A stretch of DNA of 21,902 bases from a virus. The position numbers were made by a program, and so were the translations under genes. Within the stretch, counting starts at the first letter, position 1, and each line of letters opens with the position of its first letter. Below, in pieces: positions 5,787-7,860 of the stretch. The notes under the pieces are model-generated. The model worked only from the letters and a program-made list of their open reading frames with translations, had not been told where the DNA came from and made no database searches. The stretch is taken from the IMG/VR virus record IMGVR_UViG_3300046010_006947, positions 1-21,902 of that record; one strand, written 5' to 3'.

Positions 5787-6041
5787 GTGACTTATTTACT
5801 AAGAAACTTCCCTGAGACACGAGACTGTGATTTAAAATTAACAGCGAGATACTGGGCTAAATTTGATAATTGTAGTGATTTTATTAGTCAATTATACAAC
5901 GGTCATTTAACACACTTTGAAAGCATAAGAAGAATGAGACAAAAATTGCAAATGGACAATGAAGAGTTAAGAGGGTTAAGGTATAAGACCAGAAAAAACA
6001 AGTTGGAAAAAGAAGTGAGAGAATTAATTAAAAATGATTAA
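5787..6041 (+). CDS. Hypothetical basic phage protein
   Basis: An 84-residue protein with a GTG start; an in-frame stop at 5772-5774 leaves no upstream ATG. The N-terminal part (LLRNFPETRDCDLKLTARYW) is followed by SIRRMRQKLQMDNEELRGLRYKTRK and a basic helical tail. Proteins with this outline (two helices, RRMRQKLQ, then ELRG.RY) are widespread in Bacteroidetes phages, usually near methyltransferase or recombination genes, without assigned function. The basic middle suggests nucleic acid binding. It overlaps the possible early start of the methyltransferase (ATG at 6034). Confidence 0.7.
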   Translation: MTYLLRNFPETRDCDLKLTARYWAKFDNCSDFISQLYNGHLTHFESIRRMRQKLQMDNEELRGLRYKTRKNKLEKEVRELIKND

Positions 6042-6042
6042 G

Positions 6043-6519
6043 ATGAATGTAGTAAGCCTTTTTAATGGAATGAACACTGGTCGACAAGCACTCGAAAATG
6101 TCGGGATAAAAGTGAATAAATACTATTCAAGCGAAATAAAGCCTTATGCAATAGAATTAACACAACATCATTTCCCCGACACTATACAGGTTGGTGATGT
6201 AACTAAATGGAAGGAATGGGATATTGATTGGAAAAGTATTGATTTAGTATTAAGTGGATCACCTTGTCAAGATTTAAGCGCAGCTGGTAAACGTGCGGGT
6301 ATTCACGGAAAGAAATCATCTTTGTTTTTTACTTTTGTTGATATTTTGAATCATTGTAAATCACTTAATCCAAACGTGTTATTTCTACAGGAAAACGTAG
6401 GTTCAGCGAGTAAATTAGATGTAGGCATTATGAGTCGAGCATTAGGGTATTCATCAACTAAAACACCAATTTGTCCTGATTGTGGTGGTACTGATTGTTT
6501 AGAAATAATCGAAGAATAA
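6043..6519 (+). CDS. DNA cytosine-5 methyltransferase, N-terminal part (split gene)
   Basis: This part carries the cofactor and catalytic motifs of C5 cytosine methyltransferases: motif I VSLFNGMNTGRQAL for S-adenosylmethionine, motif IV SGSPCQDLS with the catalytic Cys, and motif VI QENVGS. The SPC.DLS form resembles Dnmt3-like phage enzymes. The frame ends soon after, in a cysteine cluster CPDCGGTDC that looks like half a zinc ribbon. The rest of the enzyme (motifs VIII-X) lies at 7171-7860 in the same reading frame, beyond an inserted HNH gene. Start: ATG 6043 begins directly at motif I; ATG 6034 would add three residues. Two-chain C5 methyltransferases such as M.AquI are known, so activity by reassembly is possible. 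Confidence 0.88.
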   Translation: MNVVSLFNGMNTGRQALENVGIKVNKYYSSEIKPYAIELTQHHFPDTIQVGDVTKWKEWDIDWKSIDLVLSGSPCQDLSAAGKRAGIHGKKSSLFFTFVDILNHCKSLNPNVLFLQENVGSASKLDVGIMSRALGYSSTKTPICPDCGGTDCLEIIEE

Positions 6520-6521
6520 AC

Positions 6522-6551
6522 TTGCACCTGTAAGAATAAACTGTATATTTG
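6522..6551 (+). promoter_or_regulatory. Promoter of the inserted HNH endonuclease
   Basis: TTG (6522-6524), 19 bases, TATATTTG (6544-6551): a complete Bacteroidetes promoter that ends 12 bases before the HNH start codon. It lies wholly inside the insert, so the endonuclease brings its own expression signal and also drives the second half of the methyltransferase. Confidence 0.75.
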
Positions 6552-6563
6552 TAAAAAAAAGTT

Positions 6564-7181
6564 ATGATAGTAAATGATAAAATATTTGTCACATTAGGTA
6601 CTGCAAATATAGAGTTTTACAAGAATAAAGGTTATGAAATACCTTATAATAAAGATAAAAGAGGTCGCTTAAGAGTAACTAAAGAAATTCCAATAGAAGT
6701 AAGCGTTTACGACCTTCCTATAAAATCAAACGAAAAAATACTTGTAAAATGTGAGGATTGTAATAAAGAAAGAAGTATATCTGCACATACATTATTTGGA
6801 AGAAAAAGTAGTCAATTTTTAAAAAATGGGGAAACTCCTTGTAGTGATTGTGCTAATAAAAGAATGAGCGGTATAAATAGCCCAAGTTATATACATGGAA
6901 GCACATTATTTCCTATGTATAGAAATAACGCAAGGAAAAGAAATATAGAATTTAAATTAACTTCAGAAGAATTTATAAAAATATGTCCAAGCAATTGTTA
7001 TTACTGCGGAAATAAAAGTAATGGAGTTGATCGAAAATATAGTAATATAGGATATACAAAAGATAATTGTCTTCCTTGTTGTTCAAAATGTAACTTTATT
7101 AAAAATACAACACCATTTAATGAATTTGTAGATACAATAAAAAAAATGTATAATAAATTAAAAGAACAAAATGAAATATAA
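6564..7181 (+). CDS. Free-standing HNH homing endonuclease
   Basis: A 205-residue protein. The N-terminal half holds a zinc-binding region (CEDC near residue 63 and CSDC near 93, separated by a basic stretch), probably for DNA binding. The C-terminal half has the HNH core of the type seen in mobile phage endonucleases: YYCG, then GVDRK, GYTKDNCLPCCSKCNFIKN (roughly residues 141-175). It occupies 618 of the 651 bases that separate the two methyltransferase fragments, has its own promoter and is in another frame. This fits a homing gene that has invaded a conserved gene. Its stop overlaps the ATG of the C-terminal methyltransferase fragment by 11 bases, so translation is probably coupled. Confidence 0.88.
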   Translation: MIVNDKIFVTLGTANIEFYKNKGYEIPYNKDKRGRLRVTKEIPIEVSVYDLPIKSNEKILVKCEDCNKERSISAHTLFGRKSSQFLKNGETPCSDCANKRMSGINSPSYIHGSTLFPMYRNNARKRNIEFKLTSEEFIKICPSNCYYCGNKSNGVDRKYSNIGYTKDNCLPCCSKCNFIKNTTPFNEFVDTIKKMYNKLKEQNEI

Positions 7182-7860
7182 ATGTAAAAACACTGGGAAA
7201 ATAATTGAAGTTGAAACTTGTAAAGGATTATATCCTTGTAATATAAATAGTTCACTTTTAACAGCCCAACTAAGAAACAGATATTATTGGAGTAACATAA
7301 GAACTAAACAAGATGGGATGTTTGGAGATTTAGTTACAGATATACCACAACCGAAAGACAGAGGAATAATGTTTAAGGATATTTTAACAAGTGGCACAAC
7401 TAAAAGAAATAAATCAAATTGTTTAACAGAAGGATTGATAGAAAAAGTAGGTAGACACAAAGTAAAAGACTTTAATAATTGGCAAAAAATGTTATTGAAA
7501 AGACCTTCTTCAATGGTGATTTTAGTATATGAAAATAATGAATTAAGAGTTAAAACAAATACTAATAAAGGTTATGATGTAGTTACTGAAAATGATTGTT
7601 TAGATTTATCTTTTCCTACAAGCACAACCAGAAGAGGAAGAGTAACGAAAGGAAAATCACCTTGTTTAATGCAATCAAATAATAATTTATATGCATATAC
7701 AGGTGAGTATGTAAGATTGGTAAACAAAATAGAGATGTGCCGTTTACAAGGTTTTCCTGATAATTATTGTGATATATTGAGTGATAGGAAAGCAGGAAGT
7801 TTATTAGGTGATGGTTGGACACTTCCAGTAATTGAACATATATTTAGTTTTATTAAATGA
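7171..7860 (+). CDS. DNA cytosine-5 methyltransferase, C-terminal part (split gene)
   Basis: A 229-residue chain with the remaining motifs of the enzyme begun at 6043. Residues 1-25 (YKCKNTGKIIEVETC...YPC) look like the second half of a zinc ribbon. INSSLLTAQLRNRYYWSNI is motif VIII, followed by a target-recognition region (about residues 45-190), and then RLQGFPDNY and GDGWTLPVIEHI, motifs IX/X. It lacks the cofactor site and catalytic Cys and so cannot act alone. It is in the same frame as the N-terminal part (start-to-start distance 1137 bases), and the new ATG overlaps the HNH stop. Whether the two halves assemble is unknown; the intact motifs suggest selection or a recent split. Confidence 0.86.
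   Translation: MKYKCKNTGKIIEVETCKGLYPCNINSSLLTAQLRNRYYWSNIRTKQDGMFGDLVTDIPQPKDRGIMFKDILTSGTTKRNKSNCLTEGLIEKVGRHKVKDFNNWQKMLLKRPSSMVILVYENNELRVKTNTNKGYDVVTENDCLDLSFPTSTTRRGRVTKGKSPCLMQSNNNLYAYTGEYVRLVNKIEMCRLQGFPDNYCDILSDRKAGSLLGDGWTLPVIEHIFSFIK

Follow-up and report, generated by a model that had tools for sequence, protein, structure and literature searches.

An HNH endonuclease cassette divides a C5 cytosine methyltransferase gene in a Bacteroidota-type phage

In the phage DNA analysed here, the conserved motifs of a C5 cytosine DNA methyltransferase are distributed over two open reading frames with an endonuclease gene between them, which raises the question of how the gene came to be divided and whether its two products still constitute an enzyme. 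The analysed stretch, referred to hereafter as the window, comprises all 21,902 nucleotides of the virus record IMGVR_UViG_3300046010_006947 and encodes a primase-helicase, NinG, Erf and a terminase. The phage is of the Bacteroidota type, and its promoter boxes of the sequence TATATTTG are of this type too. The region contains the following open reading frames, with 651 bases separating the end of the first from the start of the last:

6034-6519, + strand, first half of the methyltransferase, 161 amino acids, with a start at either 6034 or 6043
6564-7181, + strand, HNH or endonuclease VII-like protein, 205 amino acids, in a frame different from that of the methyltransferase
7171-7860, + strand, second half of the methyltransferase, 229 amino acids, in the frame of the first half

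The first half matches positions 1-116 of the profile PF00145 at 4.5e-22 and the second half positions 149-321 at 5.9e-8, the two being complementary portions of this profile and also of TIGR00675 dcm. The C5 motifs I, IV (PC), VI (ENV), VIII (QxRxR) and X are all found across the two halves, and the activity predicted for the product of the split gene is that of a C5 cytosine DNA methyltransferase.

The exact extent of the insert emerged from an alignment with uninterrupted homologues, which an earlier note on this DNA had proposed as a way to locate the junction. The N-terminal part shares 74-98% amino acid identity with intact homologues up to residue 138, where the similarity stops precisely. 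In intact genes this residue directly joins residue 19 of the second half (with a gap of -3) in a clean junction at which no methyltransferase residues are lost, and the homology in the window thus stops at 6447 and restarts at 7225. As a consequence of this continuity, the insert measures 780 bp, including the last 23 codons of the first-half frame and the first 18 codons of the second. The occurrence of a Gly codon on both sides makes its border ambiguous by about 3 nt. The length of the insert is a multiple of three, it holds a single HNH/endonuclease VII-like gene and its GC content is similar to that of the neighbouring sequence. The open reading frames, their shared frame and the 651-base spacing described in the earlier note are retained in this assignment, whereas its borders at 6519 and 7171 are not: they had been set at the stop codon of the first half and the start codon of the second, so that the insert-encoded tails (23 and 18 codons) were missed. 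The revised features are:

6034..6447, + strand, N-terminal exon of the methyltransferase, residues 1-138, with motifs I-VI (FNGMNTG, GSPCQD, ENV)
6448..7224, + strand, complete inserted cassette, 780 bp with inclusion of the Gly codon that occurs twice (6445-6447 or 7225-7227)
6448..6519, + strand, C-terminal tail that the insert adds to the first half, YSSTKTPICPDCGGTDCLEIIEE followed by the stop TAA, not present in 242 contiguous homologues
6544..6551, + strand, TATATTTG, the -7 box of a promoter of the Bacteroidota type, located 12 nt upstream of the HNH start
7171..7181, + strand, overlap of 11 nt between the HNH stop (7179-7181) and the second-half start
7171..7224, + strand, N-terminal tail that the insert adds to the second half, MKYKCKNTGKIIEVETCK, which brings the start codon and is not present in intact homologues
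7225..7860, + strand, C-terminal exon of the methyltransferase, residues 19-229 of its reading frame (PF00145, 5.9e-8), with the motif VII strand, motif VIII (QLRNRYYW), the target recognition domain and motifs IX-X (GDGWTLPVIEHIF)

Searches of IMG/VR, conducted twice with the halves, identified about 155 distinct loci, and 80 further loci, many of them on the same contigs, were added later when a more distantly related allele served as the query. Wherever both halves could be placed, the gene is contiguous at the junction (242 of 242 related loci, with 141 distinct 300-nt junctions). None of these loci carries an ancestral split at the same place; such a split in HNH-less homologues would, according to the earlier note, have contradicted its proposal of a single gene that was later interrupted. 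The closest comparison is offered by the locus L089, an empty site with matching flanks (98.8% in the upstream gene, 86.6% in the downstream gene and 98.8% in Erf) and an intact methyltransferase, whose sequence we regard as showing directly the pre-insertion state. Public bacterial genomes contain only seven methyltransferase relatives, and in the six of them whose alignment to both halves reaches the vicinity of the junction, no large insertion was found at this site. The insert was detected in the window alone, on one metagenomic contig, although records very near the window may escape the searches, so that close carriers are possible. An IMG/VR search for further copies with the HNH sequence gave two relatives only, at 29-38%, and another with an HNH alignment gave 57 loci, the best at 42% and none a close copy of the insert. 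It is thus almost certain that an HNH cassette entered an ancestrally intact methyltransferase gene, as had been proposed and as is supported by the contiguous loci and the empty site.

This cassette supplies the stop codon of the first half, the start codon of the second half and a promoter of the phage type. Seven + strand copies of TATATTTG are found in the window (at 1566, 2746, 5730, 6544, 8791, 10795 and 12491), all in gaps ahead of gene starts; the intergenic sequence that harbours all seven accounts for 9% of the total, where 0.12 copies would be expected (P = 5e-8). The element is probably the main promoter box of the phage, and its copy at 6544-6551 agrees with the earlier claim that the HNH gene has its own promoter, with an inexact two-box consensus in which CTTG replaces TTTG. 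The first three sites (1566, 2746 and 5730) have the upstream stretch TATATTAAA in common. At the 3' end of the HNH gene, the start of the second half at 7171 precedes the HNH stop at 7179-7181, and this already described overlap of 11 nt suggests a translational coupling of the two genes. A search for a structured leader masking the HNH start revealed nothing special (z-score +0.72).

The HNH protein matches the endonuclease VII family phrog_1035 at 1.2e-16. In an alignment of nine HNH sequences the residues C63, C66, C96, C145, C148, D156, R157, N168, C172, C176 and N177 are invariant, and the zinc-binding CxxC pairs and the D..N active-site residues of HNH/endonuclease VII-like proteins are retained. 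The family includes members borne by introns and others where no intron was found. Three relatives, from the crAss-like phages cr50_1 and cr53_1 and one IMG/VR contig, are surrounded by group I introns, with matches at E values of 2e-4 to 4e-6 that are all below the gathering score of the family. The intron of cr50_1 interrupts a Sak4-like ATPase gene and the one of cr53_1 sits between two DNA polymerase pieces; in public records the pieces in both regions (L180 2127-3878 and L184 1103-3915) are annotated as separate genes. The HNH genes of these two phages thus resemble that of the window in their protein family and in their location inside genes of phage DNA metabolism, but they are located in group I introns and the one in the window is not. 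The same Rfam search that detects the introns of the three relatives, which thereby serve as positive controls, detected no RNA family in the insert, with no intron match at E values up to 10. We thus reject a group I intron (RF00028 core), in agreement with the earlier statement that there would be no room for one. In the relatives, the HNH reading frames run at their 3' end into the intron core, and the HNH protein of the window has no such C-terminal extension. An intron ancestry of the latter was likewise not adopted, as the tree is unresolved and places the window on a long branch. Elsewhere in the window, an 89-residue open reading frame (2465-2734) containing NUMOD4 (PF07463, 3.2e-8) is similar to phage HNH endonucleases and has no Pfam HNH match, and it is probably a remnant of a second homing endonuclease.

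The cut was located in the fold with the help of a confident AlphaFold model computed for the intact enzyme of L089 (pLDDT 86, pTM 0.87), which resembles DNMT3A/3B (Foldseek E about 1e-19, sequence E 5.6e-24). Residue 138 is part of the loop that joins helix 127-137 to strand 142-145, so that, besides strands of the catalytic domain, both the recognition domain and the helix of motif X would come from the second half. In the model, the cut falls within the catalytic domain and precedes motif VIII. Like the window, M.AquI and M.EcoHK31I form a C5 methyltransferase from two polypeptides, but their large chain contains motifs I-VIII (PMC3404938), whereas the cut described here precedes motif VIII and harbours a nuclease gene. 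M.AquI is cut after motif VIII, as are M.SssI and M.HhaI in their best artificially split versions, and in the known working splits of C5 methyltransferases the C-fragment starts after this motif, with a sharp optimum there in M.SssI (PMC3404938). Two-chain assembly works in M.AquI and in artificially split C5 methyltransferases (PMC3404938); a cut at residue 138, unlike one after motif VIII in the variable region, would demand a tighter reassembly.

Neither half visibly shows the decay that the earlier note had named as speaking against a two-subunit enzyme. An alignment with 104 intact proteins has 144 columns with a conservation of 95% or more, and the window deviates in none of the 93 such columns of the first half and in 3 of the 51 of the second. 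These deviations (V139L, R143N and D155N) are all at most 17 residues away from the insert, two of them (R143N and D155N) are also present in the uninterrupted L160 allele, and as many or more deviations are found in 13 of the 104 intact proteins. Compared to L089, the first half has a dN of 0.036 and a dS of 0.49 (dN/dS about 0.07) with no amino acid unique to the window, and the dN/dS of the second half relative to its nearest relatives is 0.08-0.28. Most of this divergence, and with it most of the conservation, dates from before the insertion.

The tails encoded by the insert are rich in cysteine, with three in the 23 residues of YSSTKTPICPDCGGTDCLEIIEE and two in the 18 residues of MKYKCKNTGKIIEVETCK. 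Five cysteines per 41 residues is unusual compared to the other reading frames of the window (P 2e-4; 14 of 4104 windows) and compared to composition-matched random DNA (0.002). The first tail contains the motif CPDC and the second CKNT, with a Thr where the fourth Cys would be expected. Once joined, the tails match the zinc-ribbon models Zn_ribbon_8 (0.008) and Zn_ribbon_IS1595 (0.016) weakly, both under the curated cut-offs. They also align without gaps to phage primase ribbons, in a match that is biased because its search pattern was drawn from the tail itself. No CxxC is found near the junction of intact homologues, a degenerate pattern detected no tail copies elsewhere in IMG/VR, and a locus search with the tails and flanking exons returned primase ribbons and uninterrupted methyltransferases only. 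A search of the contigs of 20 relatives, run without a positive control, also detected no copies. That the tails form a shared zinc site clamping the halves together is a tentative suggestion from these sequences, which we consider rather unlikely to hold.

On balance we favour, with some reservation, a scenario in which the HNH cassette has turned the methyltransferase into a gene in pieces, as happened to nrdA of phage Aeh1 through mobE. A free-standing HNH cassette of about 780 bp would have inserted into an intact phage C5 methyltransferase gene, presumably by homing. Its own promoter would drive the nuclease, the first half would have gained a stop, and translation of the second half would begin at a newly acquired start that is coupled to the end of the nuclease gene. 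The resulting polypeptides, each with a short insert-encoded tail at the cut, would most likely come together as a single active methyltransferase of two chains, to which the first half would contribute the AdoMet site and the catalytic Cys, whereas the second would complete the sheet with the strands of motifs VII and VIII and add the helix of motif X as well as the recognition domain. The Cys-rich tails may conceivably assist through a shared zinc site. By residing in the gene, the cassette would destroy its own target, and mixed infections could let it invade uninterrupted genes, as is general for homing nucleases. For the reassembly of the halves into an active enzyme, we judge the chances to be slightly better than even.

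Several alternatives have to be weighed against this scenario. Restoration of a single methyltransferase chain by a group I intron or a (split) intein might be considered, as three phage HNH relatives reside in such introns, but it is the least probable explanation: beside the negative Rfam search and the missing read-through into an intron core, the insert offers only about 160 bases outside the HNH reading frame. Intein junctions need a Cys or Ser as first residue and an Asn before Cys, Ser or Thr. The junctions found here (G138/Y139 and K18/G19) do not conform, the tails of 23 and 18 residues are too short and no Pfam intein family is matched. A joining of unrelated DNA into the gene during metagenome assembly would be compatible with an insert found on one contig only, in searches that records very near the window may escape. 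It is scarcely more credible, given that the junctions are in frame and on the same strand with exact placement of stop and start, and that the insert shares its TATATTTG box with six other intergenic sites and its GC content with its neighbours. An entry in two steps, with an in-frame zinc ribbon of about 41 codons preceding an HNH gene that later invaded it, would account for two tails that both continue the frame of the methyltransferase and, read together, resemble a ribbon; we regard it as improbable, since intact homologues are devoid of CxxC near the junction and none of the 141 distinct junctions carries an insert.

The alternative of greatest weight, which is less probable than the favoured scenario yet has to be taken seriously, holds that the HNH insertion inactivated the methyltransferase and that the halves are a recent pseudogene before decay. 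A stop or frameshift disrupts the related copies in L033/L091, L036 and L160, where the enzyme thus looks dispensable, and these three broken alleles, together with the cut inside the catalytic domain, speak against reassembly; the single occurrence of the insert would also be consistent with a recent event. Against inactivation speak the open halves with undamaged motifs, the coupling of the second-half start to the HNH stop, the short tail and own stop of the first half, and the sustained activity of similar precedents.

The closest precedent for the split described here is Aeh1, where a free-standing HNH gene likewise splits a coding sequence with both halves kept and neither intron nor intein involved, and where the split NrdA is a fully active enzyme (PMC2988022). 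According to the title of Crona et al. 2011, as given in the reference list of PMC3267527, the Aeh1 NrdA fragments assemble via domains derived from the mobile element. The locus in the window corresponds to such genes in pieces in that the gene is contiguous in relatives and its interruption consists of an endonuclease gene, with neither intron nor intein. It differs from nrdA in its target, a C5 methyltransferase, in its Bacteroidota-type phage, in its Cys-rich tails and in that the function of its product is putative. A homing-type endonuclease accompanies a split phage enzyme gene also in T4 (mobA, topoisomerase gene 60-39) and Aeromonas phage 25 (gene 43), where the targets are different and the endonuclease of phage 25 is of the seg (GIY-YIG) type (PMC2988022). 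The window adds a precise empty-site comparison to the known split-gene cases; new is not the kind of event but the enzyme class that was targeted, the cut in the catalytic domain instead of between domains and the Cys-rich tails. To our knowledge, there are few cases, such as Aeh1 nrdA and T4 gene 60, where a free-standing homing endonuclease broke a gene whose product survived. Fractured genes with split inteins, in which a free-standing homing endonuclease gene breaks a gene in two, were reportedly described by Dassa and colleagues in 2009; the window shares the break by an endonuclease gene but contains no intein halves.

The novel part of the two-chain scenario would be the zinc clamp. 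It is doubtful, though conceivable, that the cassette ends carry two halves of a zinc ribbon, that each product receives one and that metal binding clamps the enzyme even with its catalytic domain cut. If true, the mobile element would itself mend, without any splicing, the gene that it breaks: a selfish gene paying for its damage without intron or intein, and a natural small pair of zinc tags for split enzymes.

A further observation concerns the recognition domain, which is mosaic in the region 7540-7710 of the window. About 54 residues are common to the window and the related locus L002 and missing in L089, and their absence from what is otherwise the same locus suggests an exchange of specificity.
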